In this document: piece by piece, positions 3,172 to 20,270 of the stretch | How positions within the stretch are numbered: position 1 is the first letter of the stretch | Layout of the letters: every line of letters begins with the position of its first letter | DNA from: a virus | Virus record (IMG/VR): IMGVR_UViG_3300025815_001586 | Location: 1 to 20,270 of that record | DNA: 20,270 nucleotides | Direction: 5' to 3' (one strand) | The notes under the pieces: model-generated | Database searches by the model: none | The model's input: the letters and a program-made list of their open reading frames with translations, nothing else | What the model was told of the DNA's origin: nothing | Translations under genes and position numbers: made by a program

Positions 3172-4598
3172 TATTTATTACCTCCAAATAAATTTTTAAT
3201 TCCATTAATACCTTGACCAGCATATTTAAAAGCTGCTTCACCAATAACACCTTGGTCTTTTCCAAAAATAGGTTGTAAAATTCCTTTATCTACTATTAAA
3301 TAAAAAGGGTCATATTCCATTTGTTTAGTAAACTTTTGTAATCCTTCTCCAAATGATTCTTGCACAGCTTCTTTAAAATTTTTTTCTGGTACTTCACCAG
3401 ATAATATAGCATCCATAGCTTTAGTTGTATCTCCACCATATTCAGATGCAAATGTAGTAGCACCTTTAACAGCAGCTAAAGCAAGATTGCCTATTGACCA
3501 ATAAGCTATACCTTGTAATAATAATCCACTTGCACCACCCATAACACCAGCTAATGCAGTTCCTGCAAATAATTTAGGTATTCCTTTACCTAAAGTGTAG
3601 GTTATAATTTCATCAACAGGTCCAAATATTTTTCCTACTACATCTAAAGATTTCCTTCCAAGACCTGGTGTACCTGTTTGTTTATCTATATTTTCTGCAA
3701 TATTATTTTCATAAATAGGAATATCTCTATCCATTGTTTGTGCGTCATAAGCAGGTCCATCGTACCCTTCTAAAGGGTCAAAATATTCTGCACGATTAGG
3801 ATAATTATCTAAACTATCTGCATTAGCTCTATCTGCACGTTGTGCATCTTCTATGTCATCATTAAAATATTGGGGTAAATCAGCATCCATTGTTTGTGCA
3901 TCATATGCAGGTCCATTGTAACCTTCAAAAGGGTCAAACTCATCACCTGTAGGTCGCATGTTTACATCTTTTGGTGTATTTATAGATTCGTAATCTATTT
4001 TTTTATTATTAATTTTAAAATTACCATTATCAACAAAAGATAAACCATTACGATTTAATTTTAAAGTTAATCCTGTTTCATTATGTGTTATAAAAGATGC
4101 TCTATTTTCATTTTTAACAGTCCATGAATCTTTAGGAGCATAAGCACTGTTATCATCATAATATGCAACACTAATATTACCGTCAGGAAAAAGATTGTCA
4201 TCAAAACCTTGTGTAGTTAATGCTTGTTTAATACTGTCTATTTCATTATTTCTTAAATTTTCTGCAACACCAATAACTGTTTTTTGAGATGCAGTTCCTA
4301 ATTTTGCATTATTAATTACTTTAGATAATTGTTTTTTTAATTCATTAAAATCTCTCATAAAATTAATTCTTGTACTATTACGAGATTGACCAGTAGTAGG
4401 TATAGTAAGAATATTATCCATTAAATTTTTTTCAAAAACTGTTAATTGATTTCCTACTTTAATATCTAATAAATTTTTTTCATTAGACCACCATTTTTCC
4501 CAATCTAAATTTAAACTACCACGCTGATTATTTATAATCCAATCTGTTTCAGTACGTTTATAACCAGGTGCTTCTATTTCTTGTATTTTTTCAGCCAT
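3171..4598 (-). CDS. Virion-associated protein, 475 aa, with internal duplication and hydrophobic segment
   Basis: Two features stand out. First, residues 221-242 and 273-294 are near-identical copies (DPFEGYNGPAYDAQTMDADLP and DPLEGYDGPAYDAQTMDRDIP) 52 residues apart, separated by an acidic Asn/Asp/Ala-rich linker. The duplication is also visible in the DNA (about 3732-3781 and 3888-3939). Second, residues of about 343-378 are a long Gly/Ala/Leu stretch (LFAGTALAGVMGGASGLLLQ followed by GIAYWSIGNLALAAV) that could form one or two membrane helices or a pore-like amphipathic hairpin. A membrane-active segment in an otherwise soluble late protein fits ejected proteins that help DNA cross the cell envelope. 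That role is inference. Start and stop are both coupled by TAATG. Confidence 0.85.
   Translation of the reverse strand: MAEKIQEIEAPGYKRTETDWIINNQRGSLNLDWEKWWSNEKNLLDIKVGNQLTVFEKNLMDNILTIPTTGQSRNSTRINFMRDFNELKKQLSKVINNAKLGTASQKTVIGVAENLRNNEIDSIKQALTTQGFDDNLFPDGNISVAYYDDNSAYAPKDSWTVKNENRASFITHNETGLTLKLNRNGLSFVDNGNFKINNKKIDYESINTPKDVNMRPTGDEFDPFEGYNGPAYDAQTMDADLPQYFNDDIEDAQRADRANADSLDNYPNRAEYFDPLEGYDGPAYDAQTMDRDIPIYENNIAENIDKQTGTPGLGRKSLDVVGKIFGPVDEIITYTLGKGIPKLFAGTALAGVMGGASGLLLQGIAYWSIGNLALAAVKGATTFASEYGGDTTKAMDAILSGEVPEKNFKEAVQESFGEGLQKFTKQMEYDPFYLIVDKGILQPIFGKDQGVIGEAAFKYAGQGINGIKNLFGGNK
3732..3939 (-). repeat. Imperfect direct repeat inside the 475-aa gene
   Basis: Two copies of about 50 bases (roughly 3732-3781 and 3888-3939), separated by about 105 bases, share segments such as CCATTGTTTGTGC and AAAGGGTCAAA on the plus strand and encode the duplicated [FY]-D-P-x-E-G-Y-x-G-P-A-Y-D-A-Q-T-M-D motif. 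Differences are mostly third-position changes, so the copies are kept by selection on the protein. Confidence 0.8.
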
Positions 4599-6070: not shown

Positions 6071-9000
6071 TTATCCTTCTGGTAAATAATCCAAGTATTC
6101 TTGGTCATCTCTATATAACTTTAACATAACACCTGTCCATACAGCCCAAAAATCTGGATAATTTTCAATAATACCATTAGCTTCATTATACATCCACAAC
6201 CTAAGTGCTTTAGCTCTAACATCATCTGATGTTAACCACCAGTCTTTATTTCTTGTAGGTGAGTATTGTATAGACAATTGTTCAGCTTCTTCCCATTTAA
6301 CTAATGCTTCAGCAAATCCTTGTGCAGCAGCAAATTCCATAATTTTAGGATTAGTTGTCCAGTATTCTCTCATTTCATTAAATATATCCATTGTTGCTGG
6401 TGGAGATAATAAACCATATTCATCAGCTTGAAATCCAGGTAAAGCTTCTTTTAATTGTTCTCTATATAATCTTTTAATAACAGTTTTCTTAACTGATGGT
6501 ATTGTTGTTTTGTCTAAGTTCTTAGTAAATGTTTTATATCTAAAGAAACCAATTGTATCATTAACAGCTCTACGATATTGGTCAGGACTTAATAAATTCT
6601 TTTCACGAATAATATCATTATAATTTTTTTCTTCATAAGGATTGTCAATGTTTAAATAATAACCACTAACTTTTAGTGTACTAAAAATATCTGCGTTTTC
6701 TTTTTGAAATTGTTGTACTCTAACACTGTAAGGTTGTTTACCAGTTTCTGATTGTGTTCTAGGACTTAACAAATAAGGATGTTCTACTCCATATAATTCT
6801 AAAAATTCATTATATGTAGCTACATCATTACCTTCATTTTTTTCTTTAATACGTACATATTCTTCATACAATACAGCTTGACCCCATAAGTTTCCTTGTT
6901 TGTCATCAATAAAATATTCTGGTTGAAATCCTGTAGGACCAAAGAATTGATAAATAAATTGAAAACCAAACAAAGTTCCTGATTTAACTTTTGCATATTC
7001 TAAATATGCATTTTCTATTTCACCTTTATTTAATTCATTAACAGATAAACCTGGATACAATTTGTTAATATATTTATCTAACTTACCAGCTTTATATAAT
7101 CTTTCAGGTTCACCAGCAGATACACCCCATCTATACAAATCAATAGTAGCTTTAGCTCTCATACGTTCTGCTTCTGTACTTGCATCAGATATAACATCAA
7201 ACTCATCAGCACCAAGTAACCAAGCATTTAATTTTTTATATACAGGTGATATAGAAAATACATCAGTTAATTTTTCTGGTGGAGGAAACTCTCCAAATAA
7301 AGTTTTTTCTAAACTGTTAGCCCAACCATACTCTGCACCTAATTTAGTAGATGCAGTTTCAATTGGAGGTAAAACTTTATTTAAAGCAAAACCTACAAAT
7401 GGGTTAGGTCCAGGTACAAATCCTTGTCCTAACAAGTTAACACCTTGTACATATCCTCTAGGTGATATTTGTACTTGTTGTTCTCCTCCTGATAATTCAT
7501 CATCAAAAATTAAACTTGACATAAAACCACCAAATGGCATGACAAACATATCTTCTTGTGGGTCTTGTGGATTAGCTACAAAAAATCCATCATTAGAACT
7601 ACTACCTAAAGCATCTGCAGCACTGCCACCTCTAAAACCTACATGCCCTTTACGTAATACATATGGATTTTGTGCAAGTAACTTACCCCATGTTTGAAAT
7701 ACTTCAAACCACACTTCAGCAAATGGAAAAACATTTACTAACTTGTCAGATATAGTATGTCTTTGTTTTGTATCATACAATAATTCTTTTACACCAGCTA
7801 ATGCATAAGCTTTAGATTCTATATTCATAGCTTCGTAATCATCAATTTTTCCTGGTTTATACAATTTACTAGCACCTGTAAGTTCATCAATAATTTTTTT
7901 AGGAACTGCAGCATCTTTAGCTTCTTTAATAAATTGTTTTCTTAATCTTGGTGTAAAATCAGCAAATCTTTCACCAACATACATCCATCTAAATTGTTTA
8001 AATGTCGTAGACCTATTAAGAATACCAATAGGTTTTGTCATTAAATGGTCAAATACTGTTTGATAAAATATATCCATACCATCTTGAAACATTCCAAGAA
8101 AGTTTTTGTCAGTAGATTCATCAGCAAGATTTCTAGTAATTGTCATCATACCTGGGTCTAGTCCATCTTGTTTGTTGTAATATAACTTTAATTCATCTAG
8201 TACTTTTGATTTTTTAAATTTCTTTAACAAATTTTCTTCAGAACTAAAAAACTCAATTACATTTTTTTCATCAACACCATCAGTACCAAATTTAGCTAAT
8301 GTACCTTCACCAATCATTTTTCTAATATTTTGATTACCAGTATTAGTATTTAGTCTTAATTTATATTGATAAGTACCATCAGCTTGTTTAAATATATCTT
8401 TACCTTCAGATATTTGACCACCAGCACTAATACGTATTCTTGATTCTAAAAATTGTAAATGTTGGTCTAAAGTAACAGAACCATCTCTTAAAATTTCTGA
8501 CCATTTATTGCCACCGTATTTAATTAATTGTATTCTAGCTTCTCTACCTGCAGGAGATAATAACCATTCATTTAATTCTTTAGAGCCATAACCAAACTTA
8601 GCTACTTGTCTAGCAATAGGGTCATTTCTTAAATGTCTTAACTCTGCATACATTGATTCTGCTATTTGGTCTATTGTTAATTCAGATTTATCTTTTGCAA
8701 GATATTCTAAATATTTATTTTGTTTACGTCCTCTAGCATCAGCTATGTCATTAGGTCTAAATGTTTTTTGCATAGCTTCTATAACTTCTTCTTGCATTAA
8801 AAACTCTACAGCATCATTGTTTTGTTTAGCTTTTGTATATTTACCTAATGAAACTTTTTCTAACATAGCTCCAACTTTACTGTTTGGATTATGTGCAAAA
8901 ACCCATTGCAAATATTCATGTGGTTTGTTATAAAATCCTGATAAACCTTTAACAGCTATACGTGCTTGTTCTTCTAAAAACACACGTGTAAAAAATGCAA

Positions 9001-11794
9001 ATCTCATAAGTACTAATGGTTTAAATACATTTCTTGTATAAAAATTAGCTAAGTTAGTAAAGAAATTATTTTCTAATCTTTTAACAGATATAGCACCAGC
9101 TTCAAAAGGATTAGGTAAATCATCTGGGTTTTTAGCCCAAGGTGCATGATATTTTAACCATTGTTTAGTATCGTATGTGAAACTAGACCTAACATATACA
9201 CCCTCCCCTATTTCTTTATACGGTTTAAACATTCTTCCCATAGCTTTATCTAATAATCTATAATCCAGTAGGGGAGCAATGTTATCTTGCATTTCATCAA
9301 ATAAAGATGCAGTCATTGTTTGTACTACTTTTTTATTATTAAATATTGCTTCACCATCATCATTAATTTCATATCCATGAAAACCAGAACCTATGTTTGG
9401 AAGTATCTTTTTATTTTTACCTGTAGAATATATTTTCATTTTACTTTGACCTTCAAACATTTCTTTAGCAGCTTTAGCTACATATTCCCAGTTACCACCA
9501 CGTGCTGCAATTAATTGGACATCTCTTTGTGCTTGTGTATTAGCAAAACTTCTTAAAGCTTGTTTATCCATTGCATCAATAGAAGAAAATTCTTTTAATA
9601 TTTTTGATGCTTCTGTAGGGTCATATCCATTAATTTGTAAATGAGATGCAAGTTGTCTATAACCTACTTCAATATTACTTAAAGGTATTCCCATTTCAGG
9701 AACTACACCTAACATCTTTCTAAAGTAAGGATTGTATGTAGAGTTAAAGTTAGAACTAAAACCTAAATATCTTTCAAATTCAGGTAACTCTAATCCTTTT
9801 TCTACATCTACTTGTCTATATCTAGCTACGCTATCCATTTTATCTACTACTTCATCAACAGAATCTTCTACTCTTAATAATCTTGTAGGTTGTTTTCTAT
9901 AAAGAACTTCACGTACACTTCTAGTTTTTTCACCAGCCCAGCTACCAAATGTTCTATAAGCAGCATTAGGATTAATACCAGATTGGCGTAATGCTTTGTT
10001 AACTACTAATGAACCTGTCTTAGGTAACATTTTTCCAGGTAATGTATAAGGAATTAATTGTCCAGCTTCATCTTTAATTGAATATCCTGACTTACTAATT
10101 AAATCACCAAACATACTTTGTATTTTTGTCCAGTCAGTTTCTGCTGCTATTTCATCTCTAATTTGATATGGAAGATGTTTAGTAATTGGATTAGTTGCTA
10201 AATAAAATAAATCATCTTCTGTTGTAGCAGCTAACGATTTAAAAAAAGCTACATTAGTAGGCTGGTTTAATATTTCGTCAGATGTTAATTGAAAAAATCT
10301 TGGTACTCTACCAAATAATGTACTTTCTTTTTTAATCTTTTTTAAACTCTTTTTAACAGCACGTCTATCTTTAACATATTCTTTATTTTTAATAAAACGT
10401 CCAGCATCATCTTGATATTTAGCTAAGTTACCTGTACCTGTTAATCCATCAATTTCATCAGCTACAGTTTCTAAAATATCATCAGCCATAGCTCTAGGAT
10501 TTATTTTTATAGATTTACCTGTTTTTTTAATACGTCCCATTTGTACTAAGTCAAATGCTTGATTAGTTCCACGTAATCCACGTATTAAATTTTTAGCACC
10601 TTTAACACCTTTACCAGCAAATACTTCAGGTAAAATTTGATAACCAGCATCAGTTAATCCTGACAATACTTCAAATGCTTTTGTACCTGGTTCATAAAAT
10701 TCAGAAGCTGTTACTTTACCTGGTGAGTATTCCATAAGAATATTTTTATTAGCCCAATCTGGTCTGTAATAATCTTGTTCTGTTTGTCCAGCCCAAAAAT
10801 ATCTTTGTCTTGCTCTACCTGCATAAAAGTTTATTTTGTTTGGGTTATATGCAGATGTGTAATGTATTTCACCATTTTCATCAAATTGTTTAATTGGTTC
10901 ACCAATATGCTTGTAAATAAAATCACTAGCTTGTGTTGGTGTCATACCATAATTTTGTGTTAAATCTATGTAGTATGGTGTATTTTCAGCTTTAATACTT
11001 TCTAAAGTTATTTTTGTAGCTCTATCAAAGTTAAGTGGTTTACCTTGTATAACATTACGAAACATATTAGCTAATATTGGTTCTCCACCCATATCATGTG
11101 CTTCTTGTAACATATCAATAAATTTTCCTATATTACCTGCACCACCTAAATCTTTACCTAATCCTTCTACAGATGTATTACTTAAATCAATTTGCAACAT
11201 ACTTTGTGCTTTAGAAGGTGAATAACCATCTCTAAGTAATTTATCGTATGCACGTATATCTCTAAGATATGCTTGTGACCTACCAACTTTCATTGGTTGT
11301 CCAGGTGCTAATGCATTAACTGCACTAGATATAACAGACCATTTACCTGATGGACCTATTGTTTGAAATACAGCATCTAAAGCAGCAAATGCCCATACAC
11401 CGTATTGAACATCTCCTGGTTTAGCTCCACCTGGAAATAAACCTGCTGTTAACAAATCACCAATACTCATTTTCATATTATCTTCTGTATGTTCGTATTG
11501 ATATTGTTGTTGTAACTCTTGCCAAATTTTAGCTTCGTTATAAATACGATTATTTGATATTTCTTGTGCTATTACTTTATTAGCTTGAAAGTTAGGGTCT
11601 ACTCCTGCTAATGATAATGATGCAATTACATCTGCAGGCATTTCAGGAAATCTTTCTGCATAAGTTTGTAGGTCCTGTTGTATTAAATTGTTTTGTTCTA
11701 TTGCACCTTTGTATAAACCAACTTGTGCATCATCTCTATTAACACCACGTAAAATATCGTAGTATTGATTTCGGTCATATAAAATAAAACCCAT
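6071..11794 (-). CDS. Giant late protein, 1907 aa, probable internal/ejected virion protein
   Basis: The largest gene here, taking more than a quarter of the window. The start ATG shares its A with the previous stop (TAATG). The protein is soluble, mixed alpha/beta, with basic helical regions (for example RRAVKKSLKKIKKE near residue 485). No membrane helix, long Gly/Ser tape-like repeat or heptad tape-measure pattern was seen, so a siphovirus tape measure is unlikely. I found no convincing polymerase, methyltransferase, protease or transglycosylase motif. Around residues 1345-1375 a segment (VNVFPFAEVWFEVFQTWGKL) resembles the PF-x-F-W helices found late in some very large phage polyvalent/ejection proteins (LPD38-like), a weak analogy. 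Position between portal and scaffold suggests an inner-core protein that enters the cell with the DNA. A tail or head-completion function cannot be excluded. Confidence 0.8.
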   Translation of the reverse strand: MGFILYDRNQYYDILRGVNRDDAQVGLYKGAIEQNNLIQQDLQTYAERFPEMPADVIASLSLAGVDPNFQANKVIAQEISNNRIYNEAKIWQELQQQYQYEHTEDNMKMSIGDLLTAGLFPGGAKPGDVQYGVWAFAALDAVFQTIGPSGKWSVISSAVNALAPGQPMKVGRSQAYLRDIRAYDKLLRDGYSPSKAQSMLQIDLSNTSVEGLGKDLGGAGNIGKFIDMLQEAHDMGGEPILANMFRNVIQGKPLNFDRATKITLESIKAENTPYYIDLTQNYGMTPTQASDFIYKHIGEPIKQFDENGEIHYTSAYNPNKINFYAGRARQRYFWAGQTEQDYYRPDWANKNILMEYSPGKVTASEFYEPGTKAFEVLSGLTDAGYQILPEVFAGKGVKGAKNLIRGLRGTNQAFDLVQMGRIKKTGKSIKINPRAMADDILETVADEIDGLTGTGNLAKYQDDAGRFIKNKEYVKDRRAVKKSLKKIKKESTLFGRVPRFFQLTSDEILNQPTNVAFFKSLAATTEDDLFYLATNPITKHLPYQIRDEIAAETDWTKIQSMFGDLISKSGYSIKDEAGQLIPYTLPGKMLPKTGSLVVNKALRQSGINPNAAYRTFGSWAGEKTRSVREVLYRKQPTRLLRVEDSVDEVVDKMDSVARYRQVDVEKGLELPEFERYLGFSSNFNSTYNPYFRKMLGVVPEMGIPLSNIEVGYRQLASHLQINGYDPTEASKILKEFSSIDAMDKQALRSFANTQAQRDVQLIAARGGNWEYVAKAAKEMFEGQSKMKIYSTGKNKKILPNIGSGFHGYEINDDGEAIFNNKKVVQTMTASLFDEMQDNIAPLLDYRLLDKAMGRMFKPYKEIGEGVYVRSSFTYDTKQWLKYHAPWAKNPDDLPNPFEAGAISVKRLENNFFTNLANFYTRNVFKPLVLMRFAFFTRVFLEEQARIAVKGLSGFYNKPHEYLQWVFAHNPNSKVGAMLEKVSLGKYTKAKQNNDAVEFLMQEEVIEAMQKTFRPNDIADARGRKQNKYLEYLAKDKSELTIDQIAESMYAELRHLRNDPIARQVAKFGYGSKELNEWLLSPAGREARIQLIKYGGNKWSEILRDGSVTLDQHLQFLESRIRISAGGQISEGKDIFKQADGTYQYKLRLNTNTGNQNIRKMIGEGTLAKFGTDGVDEKNVIEFFSSEENLLKKFKKSKVLDELKLYYNKQDGLDPGMMTITRNLADESTDKNFLGMFQDGMDIFYQTVFDHLMTKPIGILNRSTTFKQFRWMYVGERFADFTPRLRKQFIKEAKDAAVPKKIIDELTGASKLYKPGKIDDYEAMNIESKAYALAGVKELLYDTKQRHTISDKLVNVFPFAEVWFEVFQTWGKLLAQNPYVLRKGHVGFRGGSAADALGSSSNDGFFVANPQDPQEDMFVMPFGGFMSSLIFDDELSGGEQQVQISPRGYVQGVNLLGQGFVPGPNPFVGFALNKVLPPIETASTKLGAEYGWANSLEKTLFGEFPPPEKLTDVFSISPVYKKLNAWLLGADEFDVISDASTEAERMRAKATIDLYRWGVSAGEPERLYKAGKLDKYINKLYPGLSVNELNKGEIENAYLEYAKVKSGTLFGFQFIYQFFGPTGFQPEYFIDDKQGNLWGQAVLYEEYVRIKEKNEGNDVATYNEFLELYGVEHPYLLSPRTQSETGKQPYSVRVQQFQKENADIFSTLKVSGYYLNIDNPYEEKNYNDIIREKNLLSPDQYRRAVNDTIGFFRYKTFTKNLDKTTIPSVKKTVIKRLYREQLKEALPGFQADEYGLLSPPATMDIFNEMREYWTTNPKIMEFAAAQGFAEALVKWEEAEQLSIQYSPTRNKDWWLTSDDVRAKALRLWMYNEANGIIENYPDFWAVWTGVMLKLYRDDQEYLDYLPEG

Positions 11795-12329: not shown

Positions 12330-14108
12330 TTACATTCCAAAAGCTTGAGCCATTGTAGGTATACCGCCACCCATTTGTTGTTGCATCATTTGTTGTTGTA
12401 TCATCATTTCTTCTTCAGGTGTCATCTGAGGTTCTTGTGGTGTATAAAACTGTTTCATAATATCTGTTATAGCTGAAGGATACTCGTAAATAGCTATAGC
12501 AGCCATTGTTGCTGCAGGGTCACCTTGAGCAGACCTAGCTAAAATAGAATCAAATAAAACTTGTTCAGCTTTATTTTTACGTATACGTTCTTGTACTTTA
12601 GCTATGTTTTCTAAACCATCAATGTTATCTTGTAATGTTTCTACGTCTATAACACCTGCTTGCAATAATTGCAACCCAGTTACAATTTTTTGTGGTTCAT
12701 CAAATCCAGCCATAACACCATAGATACGTCTAGTTTTAAAGTCACCACCAATATCATTAAGTGGTTGATAGTTTTCAGAAAAAGCAGAACCATTTAAGAA
12801 ACCAGCCATAGGTTTTTTACTAATACCCATAGAGTAAGAAAGTACTACATCCATTTCTAATCTCTTATGGTCCATCTCTACTAATGATTGTTTAAATATA
12901 TCCCTATACTCAGAAATCATTAAAGACATAGTACTGTTAAGTTCTGATAGTCCAGCACCAGTAACAAAGCTATTAGGTGATTGGCTATCGTCAGTTACAG
13001 GATATCCACCAACCATACGCAATTGTCTTTCTAATCTATCTATCTGTTGGAATAATTGATATGGAATGTTATTCATTGGTTTAGAAACTTGTGTACCAGG
13101 AGCTAGATAATTGACCGCAAATCTACCTTTTCTGTATTGACCGGATTCTATCTCTCCTGATATGTTAGTTTCTGTAAACACAGAATCTTCCATGGCTATT
13201 GCCGACATAATGTTAATTTTTGCCATCATTGCCATCAAACCTATTACATGGTCATATTGTCCTTTTAATTGGTCAAATGATACACGTTTCATAAATACAA
13301 ATGGTGGTGTAGATAATACGTTAGGTATAAAGTCTAAAATCATATTACGCTCTGGAAATACTACATAAGTACCACCCATGTCATAATATTCAATAACTCT
13401 TACACCAGAGTATGTGTTATCTTCCCAACCTTGTTCTCTGTTGTTCTCATAAGATAAAAATGGTGTAGCTGTATCTGTTTGTGCGTCTTGTGCATCTTCA
13501 TCTTGTTTTAAAATTTCTTTTGCAAACTCAGGATATATCTGTGCAAGTTTATATCTAGGTATACGTCTTAGTACTGCTAATTCTCTTGGTTTTTGGTCTG
13601 GTCCAAAGTTTCCTGGAAATGTATCATAAGGGTCACGTAGTTCAGCACTAGGGTAAAAGAAACCATTATTATCACGTTTAGTTGTAATAACCCAAGCACA
13701 GTAACCATAACCAGGTAACCATCTAGCTGCTTGTTGTAACTGTCCTAGTAAGTTTTGTTTTTCATCATAGTTAGTAACAATACGTTCTAGTTTTTCTGCA
13801 CGTATTTTACTTCTAGCTGAATCATTATCATTAGGAACATCAACTCTAACTTGAGGTATTCCTGAAATCTTTTGTGCAAGTCGGTCAATACCTGATTGCA
13901 ACATGTTAGGAGCTGGTAATAAATCAGCATCAGAGGTTTCCATTGTATTACCTAGTAATGCTTTTATACCATCTGCACCACCGTTGAGGATAGCTTTTAT
14001 TCTAGCTTTCTGTACTTGTCTTTCTTGTACTAACTTACCTGATGTAAGTTCAGCAGCATTTCTAACTATCTCTTTGTATGATTTGATATCTAAATTTTCT
14101 ATGCCCAT
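12330..14108 (-). CDS. Portal protein
   Basis: A 592-residue protein of the size of podovirus/SPP1-type portals. The N-terminal third has the usual portal layout: helical start, then PAPNMLQSGIDRLAQKISG (about 66-84) leading into a strand with QVRVD, and a core region with LPGYGYCAWVITTKRD (about 131-146) and ELRDPYDTFPG (about 156-166). The C-terminus is Met/Gln-rich (EEEMMIQQQMMQQQMGGG), typical of the disordered portal tail or barrel. Twelve copies would form the channel through which terminase packages DNA. The gene overlaps the terminase stop by 10 bases and is translationally coupled to it. Identification rests on residue patterns plus the invariant terminase-portal order. Confidence 0.88.
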   Translation of the reverse strand: MGIENLDIKSYKEIVRNAAELTSGKLVQERQVQKARIKAILNGGADGIKALLGNTMETSDADLLPAPNMLQSGIDRLAQKISGIPQVRVDVPNDNDSARSKIRAEKLERIVTNYDEKQNLLGQLQQAARWLPGYGYCAWVITTKRDNNGFFYPSAELRDPYDTFPGNFGPDQKPRELAVLRRIPRYKLAQIYPEFAKEILKQDEDAQDAQTDTATPFLSYENNREQGWEDNTYSGVRVIEYYDMGGTYVVFPERNMILDFIPNVLSTPPFVFMKRVSFDQLKGQYDHVIGLMAMMAKINIMSAIAMEDSVFTETNISGEIESGQYRKGRFAVNYLAPGTQVSKPMNNIPYQLFQQIDRLERQLRMVGGYPVTDDSQSPNSFVTGAGLSELNSTMSLMISEYRDIFKQSLVEMDHKRLEMDVVLSYSMGISKKPMAGFLNGSAFSENYQPLNDIGGDFKTRRIYGVMAGFDEPQKIVTGLQLLQAGVIDVETLQDNIDGLENIAKVQERIRKNKAEQVLFDSILARSAQGDPAATMAAIAIYEYPSAITDIMKQFYTPQEPQMTPEEEMMIQQQMMQQQMGGGIPTMAQAFGM

Positions 14109-16021
14109 GGTGCGTTATTTATCTCCGTCATCTTATAATCTCCATAACTAGGATTATAATCTAATCCCATATCAGCAGCATGCTCTTTTTGCATACGTCT
14201 AAAAACCTTCATTGGAAACCAACTAGCCATAACTATATCAGTTTTTTCCTTGTTTCGTTTAGAAACAGGTTTACCATCAAAGTATAACAGTTGTTGCCTG
14301 TATTGCTGTACTTTTGCATTTGACATACCATCACCTACAGGTAAATGTATTCTTCTATCTTCAAATAAATCTGCCATAGCACCTACACCATAAAGTGGGT
14401 CATGTTTGTTTTTACCTGTAAGATGTCCTTGTACAGTTATACCAGTACGTAATGTAAATTCTTTAATAGCAGCATCTTGTCGTATAGCAGTTTGAAATCC
14501 GTTTTCTTCTACTATCCAATGTCTACAATCGTACTCGTGTAACCATAAAGCCATTTGGTCAAGTGCAGCTCTAATACCACCACCACGTTTATTTTCTAAA
14601 TCTACTAAATACAACTCACCTCTGTATTGGTCTATACCCCAAAGTACAGATGCTTGGTAACCAGATGATGCAGGGTCAAGTCCAGCAACAAGATATAAGT
14701 TTTTATATACTTGTCCTAGTACTAAGTCAGGTCGCATACATTGGTCAATAATATTCATAGTAAAGATTTGTGTACCTTCTACATATGCTTGGTTGTAATA
14801 TACCATTTCAAATGTTTGTCTACCGCCTGTAGATTCTGCAGAATGTAATCTAGACATTAACCATTTAAAAGAACGTTTACTTGCCCATAACATACAATCA
14901 ATATGTTCATCTTCAAGATGTTCTGGTATAGCACAATCAAGTGCATGTGCAGTTTCTACTATTGATGTAAAGTTATCTGATTCAAGTAAGTGATTATATA
15001 AATCATCAGGATGTTGTCTAGAACCAATTACAACAACAGCAGTATGTTCCTCTTTACGACTTGATAATGTTGTTGTCCACCATTGTCTTGTATTTTCTCT
15101 TGCAGCAGGTTGCATTGTAGTTTGATGGTCCTCAATGTCGTCTGCAATTATTAAATCACAGTCACGAGATAATATCTTTCCACCTTTACCTACAGCAACC
15201 ATAGTTGGTGATTTAATACCTGCTACTGTTCTAGTACCTACAGTAAATTGATTTTGTGACCAGTTTTTACCAGACCTGTTATCAGGTTTAAATGTTGTAC
15301 CTGGTATACAAAAATCTTCTTGTAAATCTTGGTTAGTATCTAACACATCTAGTACAGCAGACAATGCATTTTTAGCTATATCTTCGTTACCACCTACCCA
15401 CATAATACGTATGTTAGGGTTTTTACATATCTGATATACAGCAAAGTGTATTAACAATTCAGTCTTTCCATGTCGTGGGGGTGACAGTATCAATAATTCT
15501 TTACCGTTATCTATAGAATCTATAATGTTATTAATCCAGTTCTCATGAAAGTCAGCGGTTTCGTAGTGTTTACCTAGTTCGGTTCGAAAATATTTGTGTC
15601 GGAAGTTAGAAAAATTTTTTAATGATTCTTTGGCATCTTGGCTTAATTCCCAATCTTCTGCAGCTACTTCGTTCCTAGTATCAATCTTGTAGGCACCAAG
15701 CATGCGACTGACAGTAGCAGAAGTGCAGCCAAGGAGGGAAGCTGCGTGTGCTACTGTCATATCGCCAGTTGCAACCTCGTCAGCTATACCTTCACTTACG
15801 AAAGCTCGGTAATACTGTCCTCGTCTAACAGAAGCGTAGTCGCCTTCGTCAGACTTACGTTCAATATTAATAGGTTTTGGGTCTGCTGTCTTGTTATGTC
15901 TACTATCTCTAGCAAACTGTCTTTTTTGACAAGTGGGGGTGCAGAATTTGCGTTGTTTCCCCTTTAATTTTTTCCTGCAACCCTCTGCTATACAGATTAC
16001 ATTTTTATTGGTATCTACCAT
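14099..16021 (-). CDS. terL: Terminase large subunit with N-terminal zinc-binding and helix-turn-helix extension
   Basis: This is the DNA-packaging motor ATPase and headful/site nuclease. Walker A is SPPRHGKT (residues 180-187) and Walker B with catalytic acid is LIIADD (290-295). The RNase H-like nuclease acids are D449 (AGLDPASSG), E505/E506 (WIVEENG) and D594 (KTDIVMASW). In front of the ATPase are about 150 extra residues: a four-cysteine site (C10, C15, C27, C31; CIAEGC...FCTPTC) with a basic tail, then a clear helix-turn-helix at about 86-114 (MTVAHAASLLGCTSATVSRM). That fold normally belongs to the small terminase subunit, and no separate small subunit gene is seen here. The extension may recognise the packaging site. 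First gene of the late operon, 32 bases downstream of the predicted start site. Its ribosome binding site is weak. Confidence 0.95.
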   Translation of the reverse strand: MVDTNKNVICIAEGCRKKLKGKQRKFCTPTCQKRQFARDSRHNKTADPKPINIERKSDEGDYASVRRGQYYRAFVSEGIADEVATGDMTVAHAASLLGCTSATVSRMLGAYKIDTRNEVAAEDWELSQDAKESLKNFSNFRHKYFRTELGKHYETADFHENWINNIIDSIDNGKELLILSPPRHGKTELLIHFAVYQICKNPNIRIMWVGGNEDIAKNALSAVLDVLDTNQDLQEDFCIPGTTFKPDNRSGKNWSQNQFTVGTRTVAGIKSPTMVAVGKGGKILSRDCDLIIADDIEDHQTTMQPAARENTRQWWTTTLSSRKEEHTAVVVIGSRQHPDDLYNHLLESDNFTSIVETAHALDCAIPEHLEDEHIDCMLWASKRSFKWLMSRLHSAESTGGRQTFEMVYYNQAYVEGTQIFTMNIIDQCMRPDLVLGQVYKNLYLVAGLDPASSGYQASVLWGIDQYRGELYLVDLENKRGGGIRAALDQMALWLHEYDCRHWIVEENGFQTAIRQDAAIKEFTLRTGITVQGHLTGKNKHDPLYGVGAMADLFEDRRIHLPVGDGMSNAKVQQYRQQLLYFDGKPVSKRNKEKTDIVMASWFPMKVFRRMQKEHAADMGLDYNPSYGDYKMTEINNAPWA

Positions 16022-16059
16022 TATTTAACTATCTTTCATTAGATGTTTGTATAGTGAGA

Positions 16060-16088
16060 ATTATATGCTATAGTTCAGTTAATTACAA
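16060..16088 (-). promoter_or_regulatory. Late-operon promoter (TTGTAA-17-TATAAT)
   Basis: On the minus strand, TTGTAA (16088-16083) and a perfect TATAAT (16065-16060) are separated by exactly 17 bases, with expected transcription start near 16053, about 32 bases before the terminase ATG. This is the best sigma-70-like promoter on this strand and sits at the only logical point for starting the structural operon. Confidence 0.7.
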
Positions 16089-16111
16089 ACACTAAACCAT
16101 AGTATTTTGTA

Positions 16112-16290
16112 ACAGGTAAAGCGGTGACCGGGACATCAAAAGCTGCTCACAGGTAAAACTGTACACTAGAAAGACAAAGGCAGTACCCAAGAACACTAGA
16201 AAAGGTTTAGTCAGCATCAATAAAGACTATGCCCGCTCACGCCCATTCTTACTGGGTTTCTACAGAAATTACCAGCATATTTTCTAGACC
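16112..16290. ncRNA. Probable structured RNA element in the divergent intergenic region
   Basis: No coding frame is supported here, but there is ordered complementarity. GTGA-C-CGGG (16124-16132) pairs with CCCG-C-TCAC (16232-16240) with a single C·C mismatch. CTAGAAAA (16196-16203) pairs with TTTTCTAG (16280-16287). TAGTC (16208-16212) pairs with GACTA (16225-16229). CCCA (16242-16245) pairs with TGGG (16252-16255). ACAG (16149-16152) pairs with CTGT (16159-16162). ACAGGTAAA occurs twice (16112 and 16149) and ACTAGAAA occurs twice (16165 and 16195), offering alternative partners. Some helices conflict, so more than one fold is possible. The strand is not decided. It could also be DNA structure, for example an origin. 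No tmRNA, RNase P, SRP or tRNA signature was found. Confidence 0.4.
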
Positions 16291-16310
16291 TTACGTACTA
16301 TAATGAGTAG

Positions 16311-16345
16311 GTCAACATTGACATATGCTAGTCAAAGGTTATATG
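16311..16345 (+). promoter_or_regulatory. Rightward promoter with GTCAA/TTGAC operator-like half-sites
   Basis: TTGACA (16318-16323) and TATATG (16340-16345) are 16 bases apart, a plausible sigma-70 promoter for the small-gene arm. The -35 box lies inside a set of half-sites: GTCAA (16311-16315), TTGAC (16318-16322) and GTCAA (16331-16335). GTCAACATTGAC is a perfect 12-base palindrome, and TTGAC-8-GTCAA is a second inverted pair. Such placement over the -35 box suggests a repressor or activator site. A further TATAAT lies just upstream (16299-16304) without a good -35 box. Confidence 0.55.
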
Positions 16346-16384
16346 TACAGAGATAAATGAATAGTATGTATAAAATATTTATGT

Positions 16385-16440
16385 ATATATGTCTATATCC
16401 TTCTGCTGTCCTATAGGACAGAAGGATATAGTACATATAT
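16385..16440 (+). repeat. Bulged hairpin 1 (H1)
   Basis: First of six hairpins sharing one plan. Lower stem CTATATCCTTCTG (16393-16405) pairs with CAGAAGGATATAG (16419-16431). The 3-base bulge CTG (16406-16408) is on the 5' side; the upper stem is TCC/GGA and the loop TATA (16412-16415). An outer helix ATATATGT/ACATATAT (16385-16392/16433-16440) extends it past 20 pairs. Unlike most others it does not follow an obvious gene; it is in the leader. Its 3' arm contains AGAAGGA, resembling the ribosome binding sites of this arm, but no start codon follows at proper distance. No U-run follows, so it is not a standard terminator. Confidence 0.85.
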
Positions 16441-16508
16441 AAATTAAAATATACCTATATGTAGTTTAATTACTTACCTATGAAGTTATATGAAATCTAT
16501 ATATTATG

Positions 16509-16563
16509 TATCCTTCTAATAAAGACTTGTTGACTTAAAAGTCAAGTCTTTATAGAAAGGATA
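16509..16563 (+). promoter_or_regulatory. Bulged hairpin 2 (H2), burying the ribosome binding site of the 32-aa ORF
   Basis: Upper part as in the family: stem ATAAAGACTTG (16519-16529) with CAAGTCTTTAT (16543-16553), 5' bulge TTG (16530-16532), ACT/AGT, loop TAAA. The stem then continues through TATCCTTCT (16509-16517) with AGAAAGGATA (16554-16563), leaving A518 and A556 bulged. The 3' strand of this extension is the Shine-Dalgarno box of the ORF starting at 16566, so the whole binding site is double-stranded in the folded RNA. This predicts repression of translation unless the stem is opened or cut. Confidence 0.75.
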
Positions 16564-16565
16564 AT

Positions 16566-16664
16566 ATGAATAAAAATAAAAAGTATGTTGATACTAATAA
16601 ATGCAATAAGAATAAATTTCAAGATACTTATTGTTATATATGCGATATTGTTCACATTGCTTAA
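16566..16664 (+). CDS. Mini-protein, 32 aa, cysteine-containing
   Basis: A short ORF with ATG at 16566, four bases after an AGAAAGGA box. It starts MNKNKKYVDTNKC; cysteines at 13, 23 and 26 (CYIC) plus His30 form a possible CxxC...H metal site. The first 20 residues are very Lys/Asn-rich. The stop is three bases from the next hairpin of the family. Size makes it uncertain by itself; the strong ribosome binding site, the repeated ORF-hairpin arrangement and shared CxxC motifs of its neighbours argue that it is real. Function unknown; a small zinc-binding protein acting on a host target is a guess. Confidence 0.5.
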   Translation: MNKNKKYVDTNKCNKNKFQDTYCYICDIVHIA

Positions 16665-16666
16665 TT

Positions 16667-16711
16667 ATCACTCAGTATTCTGCTGACTTAAAAGTCAGAA
16701 TACTGACTGAT
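16667..16711 (+). repeat. Bulged hairpin 3 (H3)
   Basis: Stem CAGTATTCTG (16673-16682) with CAGAATACTG (16696-16705), 5' bulge CTG (16683-16685), ACT/AGT and loop TAAA. Below, ATCA-C-T pairs with A-C-TGAT with a single C·C mismatch (16671/16707). It starts three bases after the stop of the 32-aa ORF. No U-run follows. Confidence 0.88.
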
Positions 16712-16749
16712 ACTTAATGTATCTTTATCTATAAAAGAAAGGAAATAAA

Positions 16750-16974
16750 ATGGATAAATTTAATAACAAAAAAGTATGTCGTGTATGTAAGCGAGAAATC
16801 GTCTTTAAGAAAGACGCATACTGGAAACCAGCTAAAAATGGAGTAACTTATCCATTAAATATACACTATGGTGCTTGCACAGAAAGTGTATATCTTAATG
16901 GCTTAGACGCTTGGAAAGTTTCTAAGCAAGAACTTACACGTCTAGATAAATTACAATTAGCACTATTTAGATAA
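16750..16974 (+). CDS. Small zinc-finger-like protein, 74 aa
   Basis: Starts at an ATG with AGAAAGGA nine bases upstream. Cys10 and Cys13 (CRVC) together with His39 and Cys43 (IHYGAC) give a C-x2-C-x25-H-x3-C pattern, a credible single zinc site of the treble-clef or ribbon type. The rest is Lys-rich with a helical C-terminus (ELTRLDKLQLALF). Likely a small nucleic-acid- or protein-binding factor, but no family was recognised. It is the longest of the mini-proteins between the bulged hairpins: H3 lies 39 bases before it and H4 two bases after its stop. Confidence 0.8.
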   Translation: MDKFNNKKVCRVCKREIVFKKDAYWKPAKNGVTYPLNIHYGACTESVYLNGLDAWKVSKQELTRLDKLQLALFR

Positions 16975-16975
16975 T

Positions 16976-17022
16976 TATCTAACTGCCTTCAGCAGACTCT
17001 TGAGTCTGAAGGCAGATAGATA
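16976..17022 (+). repeat. Bulged hairpin 4 (H4)
   Basis: Stem CTGCCTTCAG (16983-16992) with CTGAAGGCAG (17006-17015), 5' bulge CAG (16993-16995), ACT/AGT and a CTTG tetraloop, a known stable loop sequence in RNA. Below, ATCTA/TAGAT pair around one A·A mismatch (16982/17016). It begins two bases after the stop of the 74-aa gene. Its stem is unlike H3 at nearly every position, yet the geometry is the same. Confidence 0.88.
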
Positions 17023-17039
17023 CTTATTAGAAAGGATAT

Positions 17040-17057
17040 ATGAAAGTAAGTATATAG
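17040..17057 (+). CDS. Possible 5-residue leader peptide (MKVSI)
   Basis: ATG at 17040 follows a full AGAAAGGA box (17029-17036) of the type used by neighbouring genes, but a TAG stops it after five codons. The stop overlaps the first base of a folded region. It could be a leader peptide that positions a ribosome before the RNA structure at 17057-17179, or a decayed gene start. Too short to call from sequence alone. Confidence 0.25.
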   Translation: MKVSI

Positions 17058-17179
17058 TTGCAATGATACATACTCTTGAGTAGGGAGTTTATGACTTGAG
17101 TATGAGTAGCAACCAAAGGTACAAACCAAGGGGAACATAACGCTGAGCATAACCAGAGTTCCCTTGATGAAAGGAAAAC
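17057..17179 (+). ncRNA. Two-hairpin RNA leader of the 27-aa ORF, possible switch
   Basis: Hairpin one: GTTGC (17057-17061) with GCAAC (17109-17113) outside CATACTC (17069-17075) with GAGTATG (17098-17104), enclosing a 22-base loop. Hairpin two: CAAGGG-GAAC (17127-17136) with GTTCCCTTG (17158-17166), one bulged G, and a 21-base loop with two CATAAC copies. CCTT in the 3' strand of hairpin two (17162-17165) can instead pair with AAGG (17171-17174) of the ribosome binding site, with loop GATGA. The two pairings exclude each other, the layout expected of a translational switch. No known riboswitch class was recognised. Confidence 0.5.
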
Positions 17180-17180
17180 T

Positions 17181-17264
17181 ATGAATGATGATGTATTATA
17201 TTGTCCAGCTTGTCTGGAACCAGAAACTAATGAATGTATGTGTTACATTCTAGTTATGGTGTAA
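17181..17264 (+). CDS. Mini-protein, 27 aa, with two cysteine pairs
   Basis: ATG with GAAAGGA six bases upstream. Cysteines at 8 and 11 (CPAC) and at 19 and 21 (CMC) could bind one zinc ion in a knuckle of minimal size. The C-terminus is hydrophobic (YILVMV). The stop is immediately followed by bulged hairpin H5. Reality is supported by the RNA leader, ribosome binding site and the same ORF-hairpin arrangement as its neighbours. Function unknown. Confidence 0.5.
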   Translation: MNDDVLYCPACLEPETNECMCYILVMV

Positions 17265-17265
17265 C

Positions 17266-17312
17266 TATCTAACAGCAGTCTGCTGACTTAAAAGTCAGAC
17301 TGCTGATAGATA
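17266..17312 (+). repeat. Bulged hairpin 5 (H5)
   Basis: Stem CAGCAGTCTG (17273-17282) with CAGACTGCTG (17296-17305), 5' bulge CTG (17283-17285), ACT/AGT, loop TAAA. Lower part ATCTA/TAGAT with an A·A mismatch (17272/17306) at the same position as in H4. It begins two bases after the stop of the 27-aa ORF. Confidence 0.88.
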
Positions 17313-17340
17313 TTTATGAAAATTAACTTGAAAGGAAGTT

Positions 17341-17427
17341 ATGAAAACTATAAATATAAATACATATTGTCACGAATGTGATAGTAGTCACGAAAGTGAC
17401 TATATATATTTACAATATCATCAGTAA
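17341..17427 (+). CDS. Mini-protein, 28 aa, with CxxC...H motif
   Basis: ATG at 17341 with GAAAGGA six bases upstream. Cys10, Cys13 (CHEC), His17 and His27 could form a small zinc site; the remainder is Tyr/Asn/Ser-rich. It has no membrane segment. The stop is one base before the next hairpin (H6). As with its neighbours, the call depends on ribosome binding site and arrangement more than on length. Confidence 0.45.
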   Translation: MKTININTYCHECDSSHESDYIYLQYHQ

Positions 17428-17484
17428 ATATATATCAATCAGTTGTCTGTAGACACTCGTGTCAGACAACTGACTGATATATAT
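17428..17484 (+). repeat. Bulged hairpin 6 (H6)
   Basis: Stem CAGTTGTCTG (17440-17449) with CAGACAACTG (17463-17472), 5' bulge TAG (17450-17452), ACA/TGT, loop CTCG. Lower part is an AT-rich helix of about 10 pairs with one A·C mismatch (17438/17474). It begins one base after the stop of the 28-aa ORF. Both the loop and bulge differ from H2-H5 while the geometry is kept. Confidence 0.88.
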
Positions 17485-17527
17485 AGTTAATATGTATATC
17501 AATTTAGCTAACAGAAAGGATATAACA

Positions 17528-17800
17528 ATGGCTAAAGCAATGGACCCAGTAGTTTGCGGACTTACTGGCAAAACACTAACCGAATGGCGTGAAAGACTAT
17601 TCGTTCAAAGATATATTGGAGGAAAGTTACAAACTATTCCATTATATCTTGATGTCAATGCAATAATAGAATTGCATAGACAATCTCCAACATATATCGC
17701 TAAGAAATCTGGCGATAGTGCAGAGGCATCTGCACCAGCTACTGAAGAAGTAGCTGTTACCGAAAGCACTGAAGTGCTTGAGGAAGTAGCACCCTATTAA
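17528..17800 (+). CDS. Small protein, 90 aa, acidic disordered tail
   Basis: The frame is open from 17492, but the ATG at 17528 is chosen because AGAAAGGA lies eight bases upstream and no binding site precedes the earlier ATG. Residues 1-60 look folded, with a start (MAKAMDPVVCGLTGKTLTEW) followed by basic residues (RERLFVQRYIGGKLQ) and a short strand-helix (LDVNAIIELHRQ). Residues 62-90 are Ala/Glu/Thr/Val-rich and acidic (ATEEVAVTESTEVLEEVAPY), probably disordered. No family recognised. Confidence 0.75.
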   Translation: MAKAMDPVVCGLTGKTLTEWRERLFVQRYIGGKLQTIPLYLDVNAIIELHRQSPTYIAKKSGDSAEASAPATEEVAVTESTEVLEEVAPY

Positions 17801-17818
17801 AATCGTATAGATTTTATA

Positions 17819-17844
17819 GTGCCTATGTTGTATAATGTAGGCAC
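17819..17844 (+). other. Small intercistronic hairpin
   Basis: GTGCCTA (17819-17825) pairs with TAGGCAC (17838-17844) around a 12-base loop. It stands 18 bases after the stop of the 90-aa gene, but it lacks the 3-base bulge of H1-H6. It is followed by a mixed A/T sequence, not a U-run, so termination is doubtful. A weaker AT-rich inverted repeat follows (ATAGT...ACTAT, about 17856-17873). Confidence 0.5.
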
Positions 17845-17898
17845 AATAAAGTTTATAGTGAATATATACTATGAGCTTTACAAAAAAGAAAGGAAACT

Positions 17899-18108
17899 AT
17901 GGATATAAATAAAGTTCGTAATGCATTAGAAACATTATCTGCAATTCTAAACGCTGACCAAATAGGACAGCTAGAAAGAATGGTAGCACAAGGTGTTATT
18001 AATCATCACGAAAACGTAGCAAGTAATCGTTCTGAAACAGATTTACAACAGCTTGGTATAGATGCAAAGCTTGATGTAGATATGTCATTCTACGAGGACC
18101 CGTTTTAA
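17899..18108 (+). CDS. Small acidic protein, 69 aa
   Basis: AGAAAGGA lies six bases before the ATG. The N-terminal half is an amphipathic helix pair (NALETLSAILNADQIGQLER) and the C-terminal third is acidic (AKLDVDMSFYEDPF). No cysteine, membrane or catalytic motif. Function unknown; hairpin H7 follows. Confidence 0.75.
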   Translation: MDINKVRNALETLSAILNADQIGQLERMVAQGVINHHENVASNRSETDLQQLGIDAKLDVDMSFYEDPF

Positions 18109-18120
18109 TTAATCCATATC

Positions 18121-18165
18121 GTTGCGTCTGTCGTTGTTTACTTATGTGTCAACGACAGACACAAC
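18121..18165 (+). other. Long intercistronic hairpin without bulge (H7)
   Basis: GTTGCGTCTGTCGTTG (18121-18136) pairs with CAACGACAGACACAAC (18150-18165), 15 of 16 pairs with one C·A mismatch, around a 13-base loop. It lies between two small genes as H3-H6 do, but has no 3-base bulge and a large loop. The next ribosome binding site (GAAAGGA, 18170-18176) is just outside the stem. No U-run follows. Confidence 0.8.
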
Positions 18166-18180
18166 TTATGAAAGGAAACT

Positions 18181-18387
18181 ATGTTAAATATAAATGACAA
18201 ACTAGACAGCTTAACTGAACAACAGTTAAAAGCTGTTATTAAATGGACACTCAGTGATTTGTATAGAACAGTGCATGAATACCAGGGACTTAATGAATAT
18301 GTTAAAGGTTGGTGTTCAATGCTTGACGAAGCTATTAAATATCAAATAGATAAACAATACAATTCAACTGTTAACGAGGAGGAATAA
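18181..18387 (+). CDS. Small helical protein, 68 aa
   Basis: GAAAGGA lies before the ATG. Mainly helical and charged (DKLDSLTEQQLKAVIKWTLS), with a KGWCSMLDEAI segment in the middle and an acidic end (NEEE). The terminal Glu codons GAGGAGGAA also serve as the Shine-Dalgarno box of the next gene, whose ATG is two bases past the stop. Function unknown. Confidence 0.78.
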   Translation: MLNINDKLDSLTEQQLKAVIKWTLSDLYRTVHEYQGLNEYVKGWCSMLDEAIKYQIDKQYNSTVNEEE

Positions 18388-18389
18388 AT

Positions 18390-18737
18390 ATGCGTATGTA
18401 TACAGACAGTGCAGATGCTATCAAAGCTTATGCAGAAGAAGTTAATTTTGACTTATCTAAATGTGATGAGGTAATTGAAATTAAGGAAAGCGAAAAATCA
18501 AGAGGTGGTTTGCAGATTAAATTTCCTAATTATAATAACAAACTTATGACAGTTACAATACATCACACTTGGGGAGATTTGTTTGACATTACATTTCATA
18601 CCAGTGATAAAGGAGAACAAACAATTAATGATGTTTTCTTTGATGATTTAATGGCAACATTTAATGCTTTAAAAGTAGCAATGACTGGTGTTACTAAAGA
18701 AGAATGGAGAGATATTTTATTTAATGAGGGAGAATAA
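18390..18737 (+). CDS. Hypothetical protein, 115 aa
   Basis: Starts seven bases after GAGGAGGAA. An alpha/beta layout: N-terminal helix (SADAIKAYAEEVNF), then strands (LQIKFPNY, LMTVTIHHTWGDLFDITFHT) and a C-terminal helix (FDDLMATFNALKVAM). This might be a small ferredoxin-like or SH3-like fold, but I cannot name a family. The stop overlaps the next start (TAATG). Found in a run of small early-type genes; it may be an inhibitor of a host function. Confidence 0.8.
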   Translation: MRMYTDSADAIKAYAEEVNFDLSKCDEVIEIKESEKSRGGLQIKFPNYNNKLMTVTIHHTWGDLFDITFHTSDKGEQTINDVFFDDLMATFNALKVAMTGVTKEEWRDILFNEGE

Positions 18738-19775: not shown

Positions 19776-19995
19776 AGAATTATTAATAGAACAGTACGCA
19801 CATTGCGGAGAATGTTTAAGAGAAAAACCAGATGATATAGCACCAGTTGATTATGCTAAATACTCAATTGGTATTACTAAAGACAAATCATATGTTCAAG
19901 TATGGTGCGAACATCATCAAGGAGAAGTTGCATTGTTACAATTAGCAAAACCATTAGATATAACTAATAGTTGTAATTGTGAACACTGCGAATAG
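19762..19995 (+). CDS. Small cysteine-rich protein, 77 aa (probable zinc binding)
   Basis: Overlaps the end of the YubB-like gene; the first ATG (19762) or the one two codons later (19768) may be used, and no strong binding site separates them. Cys15/Cys18 (CGEC), Cys49 with His51/His52 (WCEHH) and Cys71/Cys73/Cys76 (CNCEHC) offer ligands for one or two zinc ions. The middle is beta-rich (YSIGITKDKSYVQVW). Its shape resembles zinc-ribbon proteins found among phage early genes, and it extends the theme of small CxxC proteins at 16566-17427. Function unknown. Confidence 0.78.
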   Translation: MIMLKELLIEQYAHCGECLREKPDDIAPVDYAKYSIGITKDKSYVQVWCEHHQGEVALLQLAKPLDITNSCNCEHCE

Positions 19996-19998
19996 TTT

Positions 19999-20270
19999 CA
20001 ATGCAGAACCACTGTAGTTGATAACGCAAGAGCTACTTACATTGCTAGTTTATAAGGTTGTTCATGCCTTTCCCTTGCTAGCCGTAAGACCAAAATGTAG
20101 GTAGCTTGTAGCACATGAGTAGTTCTTTACTCCGACTATTTGTGTGTTACAAGCTATCTATGTAAAACGAGTAAGTACGGAAAGAGAAATTCACGCAAGT
20201 GATGTCCTGCTAGAAAACTCGTAGTAGATAGCTTGTAGCACATAGGTATGTCGACCATTTGGTAATCAAT
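19999..20270 (+). ncRNA. Large folded non-coding region with repeated hairpin arm, runs off window
   Basis: No coding frame of note, but successive helices cover the stretch. CAATG (19999-20003) pairs with CATTG (20040-20044) enclosing GTAG/CTAC. GCTAG (20044-20048) pairs with CTAGC (20078-20082) enclosing AAGG/CCTT. An 18-pair helix joins TAGGTAGCTTGTAGCACA (from 20098) to its partner (about 20141-20160), with two G·U pairs and an inner GAGTA/TACTC stem. ACGAGT (20167-20172) pairs with ACTCGT (20217-20222) enclosing a TCAC-GCAA-GTGA hairpin with a GNRA-type loop. A second copy of the 20-base arm (about 20224-20243) starts another hairpin whose partner must lie beyond 20270. The G·U pairs fit plus-strand RNA. 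It could be part of a large ornate phage RNA; the class is not known. Confidence 0.55.
20096..20243 (+). repeat. Repeated 20-base element GTAGRTAGCTTGTAGCACAT
   Basis: Two copies, starting near 20098 and 20224, differ at one position (G or A). The first is the 5' strand of a long hairpin; the inverted partner at about 20141-20160 carries the complement. The spacing is about 126 bases, matching the hairpin plus the GNRA-containing domain between them, so the structural unit may be tandemly repeated past the window edge. Confidence 0.75.

Follow-up and report, generated by a model that had tools for sequence, protein, structure and literature searches.

What do six hairpins of one plan do between the very small genes of an uncultured phage, and what is conserved in them? 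The question arises from IMG/VR record IMGVR_UViG_3300025815_001586, a stretch of 20,270 bases that was analysed as a whole and is called the window here. The window makes up the left half of G001, a relative with 39,194 bases. The gene of the terminase large subunit and likewise the structural genes are oriented leftward, and a rightward early region of tiny genes starts at about 16.4 kb. For comparison, 80 terminase relatives and 16 larger records were examined.

The hairpin-bearing viruses are a large group of uncultured, mostly marine tailed phages, probably with an actinobacterial host. Such a host is suggested by the distant affinity of the terminase, portal and exonuclease sequences to Streptomyces phages, and a GTDB search for the host returned only phage contigs placed in mixed MAGs. 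Terminase relatives (L123-L127) were found in GTDB MAGs of four unrelated bacterial groups and are probably phage contigs mis-binned into host genomes. A search among phage records found no close isolate, and the two records inspected, ct2KA10 and Dagobah, had no comparable hairpin set. The late region of the window encodes a 1907-aa protein (6071-11794) without a significant match in Pfam or PHROGs, which is possibly an ejected virion protein.

Hairpins of the window

The original prediction, made from the letters of the window, described six hairpins with at least 10 lower pairs, a three-base bulge only on the 5' strand, three upper pairs and a four-base loop. This geometry was recovered in full, with lower stems of 13, 11, 11, 10, 10 and 11 Watson-Crick pairs, and all the 5' bulges (CTG, TTG, CTG, CAG, CTG and TAG in H1 to H6) were present as described (Table 1). 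The mismatch 11-12 pairs below the bulge in H3 to H6 was also confirmed. A strict search for this geometry identified six sites on the + strand, none on the - strand and none in 150 dinucleotide shuffles of the window, and the folding z-scores of the six hairpins were -5.4 to -7.1. A chance origin was rejected on the basis of the shuffles and of head-core occurrences in unrelated viral contigs, which extend by only 3-4 pairs. Copies in the rest of the genome were looked for as well, and a relaxed seventh hairpin (H7) was found in the window; past its end, G001 carries others, at +4.3 and +9.0 kb relative to the start of the terminase gene.

Table 1. Coordinates of the early-region features in the window (with the terminase gene as landmark); stems are given as lower pairs, bulge, upper stem and loop.
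Feature	Position	Strand	Description
Terminase large subunit gene	14099..16021	-	
TTGACA hexamer	16318..16323	+	kept in most of an alignment of 18 relatives, ~60-70 nt upstream of H1
H1, 5'-leader hairpin	16384..16441, core 16393-16431	+	13 bp, bulge CTG, TCC/GGA, loop TATA
H2	16509..16563, core 16519-16553	+	11 bp, bulge TTG, ACT/AGT, loop TAAA
Tiny ORF, 32 aa	16566..16664	+	CxxC-containing; RBS gaaagga
H3	16661..16717, core 16672-16706	+	11 bp, bulge CTG, ACT/AGT, loop TAAA
Zinc-ribbon-like ORF, 74 aa	16750..16974	+	weak Pfam A2L_zn_ribbon match, below cut-off
H4	16971..17027, core 16983-17015	+	10 bp, bulge CAG, ACT/AGT, loop CTTG; A·A mismatch
Tiny ORF, 27 aa	17181..17264	+	two CxxC/CxC motifs
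H5	17262..17316, core 17273-17305	+	10 bp, bulge CTG, ACT/AGT, loop TAAA; A·A mismatch
Tiny ORF, 28 aa	17341..17427	+	
H6	17428..17484, core 17439-17473	+	11 bp, bulge TAG, ACA/TGT, loop CTCG; A·C mismatch
Early ORF, 90 aa, after H6	17528..17800	+	conserved
H7, relaxed seventh copy	18121..18165	+	11 bp (16 with one C·A mismatch), 13-nt head TTTACTTATGTGT

Below the core, H1 has an outer helix of 9 bp past one bulged U, the outer 3' arm of H2 includes the Shine-Dalgarno sequence of the next ORF (AGAAAGGATA), and H3 continues into an outer helix after a C·C mismatch. For H3, H5 and H6, the fold of lowest computed energy has a head pairing other than the one first drawn; the upper pairs covary nonetheless, and energy does not settle the exact head fold of these three hairpins. 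An alternative drawing, in which the bulge starts one base earlier, gives a G-N-N bulge with a 4-bp upper stem of the GACT/AGTC type and fits the relatives better. The repetition of the preceding triplet by the bulge, which had been pointed out for five of the six hairpins, is not conserved among relatives.

The TTGACA hexamer upstream of H1 is presumed to be the -35 element of a rightward early promoter, with no good -10 assigned, and it does not appear in the promoter-scan list. Other inverted repeats were also observed in the window. An A/T-rich one of 12 bp with a 10-nt centre (17402-17435) abuts H6, and an imperfect one of 26 nt lies at 20098-20160. One of its arms, TAGATAGCTTGTAGCACA, occurs again, inverted, at 20225-20242; both places fall within a gap that extends from 19995 to 20267. 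A similar hairpin, AAGCTATCTA/TAGATAGCTT, is located upstream in L061.

Gene boundaries and compensated stems

A permissive hairpin search (595 candidates) was too noisy, and a stricter search was used instead. In 16 related phages, the rightward early region contained 81 perfect inverted repeats with a length of 10 bp or more, versus 3 elsewhere, two of which were early copies wrapped round a contig end. The positions recur when counted from the terminase start, at ~+372 (the leader, homologous to H1), in an array up to ~+1.5 kb, and at ~+2.1, +3.2-4.9 and +8.4-9.7 kb; phages of the G005 type lack the array. The hairpins are on the transcribed strand, one of them in the 5' leader, and where an upstream ORF was called they start in most cases 7-17 nt past its stop codon, the next ATG following 3-66 nt after the hairpin. 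For most array copies, the start codon follows at a distance of 20-66 nt and the Shine-Dalgarno sequence is unobstructed, whereas the 3' arm contains or abuts it in H2 and in several distal copies (G003 +3169, G007 +4888, G010 +3425). In the window's phage, no ORF follows H1 closely.

The site at ~9 kb was fixed only by its flanking genes, including a conserved annealing-protein gene downstream, and a hairpin was present in all 19 distinct alleles (z -1.8 to -5.6, mean -3.3), with a mean pairwise identity of 0.47 in the hairpin versus 0.83 in the adjoining gene. From the leader set of 51 sequences, most, though not all, fold well (z -8.9 to +0.9). A conserved RNA structure at early gene boundaries is demonstrated at the level of sequence comparison. 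In close relatives, the hairpins are kept while the tiny ORFs between them are swapped, as seen by inspection of the maps of L022/L024 and L066/L069/L072/L075. A second hairpin type with a conserved stem and a variable loop (TAGAGTGTA/TACACTCTA or TAGTACCTA/TAGGTACTA) was observed after an early ORF in several lineages (L016 1848-1876, L080 2030-2058, L084 1714-1743, L062 1224-1252, L069 1087-1117, L077 1094-1124).

Covariation was assessed in the head type of the window's phage, class A. Candidate sites were picked by the head alone, that is bulge and upper stem, with no demand on the lower stem, and they split into 45 with 0-5 and 29 with 7-9 of nine lower pairs. Eighteen distinct hairpins of the latter group, from this and close phages, were aligned without gaps and showed two-sided compensation at 11 of the 13 pairs; 69 changes affected both sides, none affected one side only, and G·U was absent. 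Standard pairs made up 98.7% of the cells, a figure that is partly built in, as these hairpins were selected for pairing; the variety of pair types is not built in by the selection. The covariation score was 0.83, versus 0.17 after shuffling and 0.09-0.17 with partners slid. Below the stem, most class-A hairpins have one mismatch followed by further helix, and this mismatch consists only of A and C in 18 of the 20 scorable hairpins of the same head type. Since A/C mismatches cannot pair on the + strand and the other strand would allow G·T, RNA of the + strand is favoured as the working form. The strong covariation bears out the proposal that conservation concerns the structure and not the sequence, on the transcribed strand. 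When a covariance model was built from class A, as had been suggested, it found the arrays of classes A and B and only those, so that other head types are linked to them through their position and layout.

G·U pairs are also nearly absent at the ~9 kb site, where they account for 4 of 323 pairs (319 Watson-Crick). Such scarcity is unusual for a constraint on RNA only and could point to a function at the DNA level or to hairpin-templated mutation, a process that copies one arm from the other.

Heads by lineage

Each phage lineage has its own head, which is largely common to its hairpins, among them GCT-GACT-NNNN-AGTC in class A, TCC-GACTT-CTTG-AAGTC in class B, TTCC-GACTT-ATG-AAGTC in class C and ATCC-TTRC-GG in class E. 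The precise plan of three-base bulge, three upper pairs and tetraloop turned out to be one lineage's version only and not universal. Outside classes A and B, homologous positions lack the bulge, which had been named as an outcome against the prediction; another lineage-specific head stands there, not nothing. The most divergent head type seen was observed in G013 (L115), where an A-rich centre, ATAAAAA, is common to early-region stems of 10-15 bp.

Heads cluster by genome to an extent that was reached in none of 2000 permutations (difference 0.104 versus a permutation sd of 0.008); stems cluster by genome weakly and far less than heads, yet beyond permutation. Distal hairpins of one genome carry a looser version of its array head. 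Before the same zinc-ribbon ORF, the orthologous stem TCAGTATTCT bears the head GCT-GACT-TAAA-AGTC in class A (the window's phage) and TCC-GACCA-CTTG-TGGTC in class B (L022, L042), by which recent duplication of one hairpin was rejected as the sole cause of the shared heads. The zinc-ribbon ORF itself was considered as the head reader and dismissed; it is unlikely to set the difference between A and B, because its closest relatives include phages with another head.

Across much of the early region, G001 and G010 show 90-97% identity (about 90% when given for the DNA as a whole), and most proteins encoded there are 92-98% identical, yet the hairpin heads of the two differ. At +9 kb, flanks with 95/92% identity enclose a hairpin, placed between stop and start codon, whose sequence is unrelated in the two phages, a wholesale replacement. 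Head and lineage are confounded except in this pair. Genes by which G001 differs from G010 are located at 29239-31149, at 3171-4598 and in the array (16.4-18.2 kb). Those that group with phages of the same head include a late 636/686-aa gene, a 475/807-aa gene and array genes; this grouping is a lead only, as there is one informative pair and a host difference would give the same pattern. The late 636-aa gene, which grouped with the head class (L091:9439-11349; G001 29239-31149), adjoins a holin-like gene, is absent or strongly diverged between the otherwise near-identical G001 and G010, and has a weak Colicin_D match in Pfam (E 0.007, below the family cut-off).

Possible functions and known systems

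With about an even chance of this being correct, the hairpins are intercistronic RNA elements read by a putative lineage-specific trans factor, most likely in mRNA processing or insulation. They would punctuate a polycistronic early transcript after nearly every small early gene, with one element in the 5' leader and the rest just past stop codons, ahead of the next Shine-Dalgarno sequence. Each element would comprise a perfect stem of 10-15 bp, often extended past a mismatch, and a head made of a bulge or internal loop, a short upper stem and a small loop. A trans-acting factor, either phage-encoded or host-specific, would read the head in the context of the long duplex and process or insulate the mRNA at each gene boundary, by cleaving the early transcript or by protecting cistron ends. 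As a consequence, the tiny genes would be exchangeable cassettes, and a change in the specificity of the factor would force all heads of a genome to change together. We strongly infer a putative lineage-specific reader of the heads, and processing or insulation as the function is a choice among rivals; this account does not explain why G·U is nearly absent. Among the options originally put forward, a specific signal for binding or processing remains the best reading of a conserved, transcribed-strand structure that is not an ordinary terminator. The other option, a mobile hairpin, did not hold as stated and applies in another sense, in that tiny ORFs are swapped between conserved hairpins and one hairpin was replaced between closely similar flanks.

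The early R sites of T7 are hairpins between the genes of an early polycistronic transcript and have asymmetric unpaired bases in a long stem. Similarly, the present hairpins lie between early genes and have long irregular stems, and they could serve the host RNase III as general cleavage sites in double-stranded RNA, their heads having no special reader and drifting with the lineage. This would agree with their place between cistrons, with irregular stems that add up to ~20 bp or more, with the tolerance of any stem sequence, and with some Shine-Dalgarno sequences that a cut would release. However, we consider it unlikely: a head shared on unrelated stems of one genome and switching in concert between near relatives such as G001 and G010, on stems that turn over fast, is left unexplained and distinguishes the hairpins from R sites, and no reason is given for the confinement to the early region. 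In lambdoid N/boxB systems, a small phage-specific RNA hairpin head serves as the recognition site, which the lineage-specific heads recall. By this analogy, and with H1 shortly downstream of the conserved TTGACA element, antitermination elements of the boxB/put kind might be envisaged, to which a phage factor or RNA polymerase would bind in the leader and then anew after each gene. They are rather improbable, as there are no terminators to overcome between the genes and many copies instead of one per operon, with a long stem below the bulge; no boxA-like companion was noticed, and an N-like gene was also not recognised in Pfam and PHROGs scans, by which small divergent peptides would be missed. 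The likeness to the MS2 coat protein operator consists of bulge, short upper stem and tetraloop, whereas the bulge has one base in MS2 and three here, and the present hairpins are multi-copy and mostly not over a start codon. Translational operators of this type, with a phage protein on the head blocking the ribosome site of the next gene, would suit H2 and the distal copies with a Shine-Dalgarno sequence in or beside the 3' arm, and have a low probability in view of the free Shine-Dalgarno sequences behind most array copies and the lack of a close ORF behind H1.

The rarity of G·U and the absence of one-sided changes would fit elements that act as DNA, namely cruciform or single-strand hairpins serving as promoters of a virion RNA polymerase or as attC-like sites of cassette recombination, and so would the exchange of ORFs between hairpins and the one wholesale hairpin replacement. 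Integron attC sites conserve structure over sequence, have extra bases on one strand and follow cassette ORFs; all three features are found here, whereas no conserved core sites were noticed and no IntI-type tyrosine recombinase was present among the scanned genes of G001 (some small ORFs were outside the scan). Among the genes scanned, neither an RNA polymerase nor an integrase or recombinase was recognised, save for one weak match to a single-strand annealing protein; the large late proteins, examined for a virion RNA polymerase, gave no result. As the A/C-only mismatches favour + strand RNA, and strict placement at gene boundaries with a leader copy is better suited to mRNA, we attach little probability to DNA-level elements. 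Ordinary intrinsic terminators with weak U-tracts are highly improbable. They would be expected as stable hairpins past stop codons, but no T-run follows any of the seven hairpins, one copy is in the leader ahead of the first gene, and the downstream genes have no evident promoter of their own. The original statement that the hairpins lack a U-run and are not ordinary terminators was upheld, since the only terminator-like match of the region is a different structure (17384-17403).

In the PeSL cassettes of T4-type phages (Arbiol et al. 2010, cited in PMC4177764), as here, hairpin-bearing spacers bound small, shuffled early genes, the exchange of ORFs in the present phages being seen by inspection. 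PeSL reportedly join an early promoter to a terminator-like stem-loop. In the present phages, the copies have neither a recurrent promoter nor a U-tract behind them; a single scan, for sigma-70-type sites only, showed no promoter excess in 15900-18400 (7 found versus 12.8 expected). The ESAS/SAS elements of cluster K mycobacteriophages, to which the layout had been likened, are multi-copy inverted repeats before small non-structural genes with a subcluster-specific consensus (PMC3203893), and a 13-bp start repeat of the GGGATAGGAGCCC type stands beside the inverted repeat; no such start repeat was noticed in the region read here. The comparison fails at the stems: the 17-bp arms of ESAS conserve their sequence without compensatory pairing (PMC3203893), whereas the arms here vary with two-sided compensation. 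The window had no Rfam match at gathering score, and no description was found in the open-access literature, which is weak evidence as the coverage is incomplete. By layout, the closest systems are the R sites of T7 and the PeSL cassettes of T4, and by recognition they are boxB and the operator of MS2; none of the compared systems combines free stems with concerted, lineage-specific heads.

It is only tentatively proposed, as a possibility with somewhat more against it than for it, that the hairpins represent a new regulatory RNA class, in which genome-wide early hairpins carry heads that form a lineage-specific code, the set of heads switches in concert, stems are rewritten by compensated changes and a putative reader evolves fast. 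If true, this would be a natural experiment in RNA-protein co-evolution, with dozens of genomes that each hold several copies of their own head on unrelated stems, and the near-identical phage pair with different heads would make the specificity gene, of phage or host, directly testable. Nearly all early genes of these uncultured phages are without known function, and the hairpins would provide a structural rule for locating gene boundaries and exchangeable early cassettes in an abundant group.
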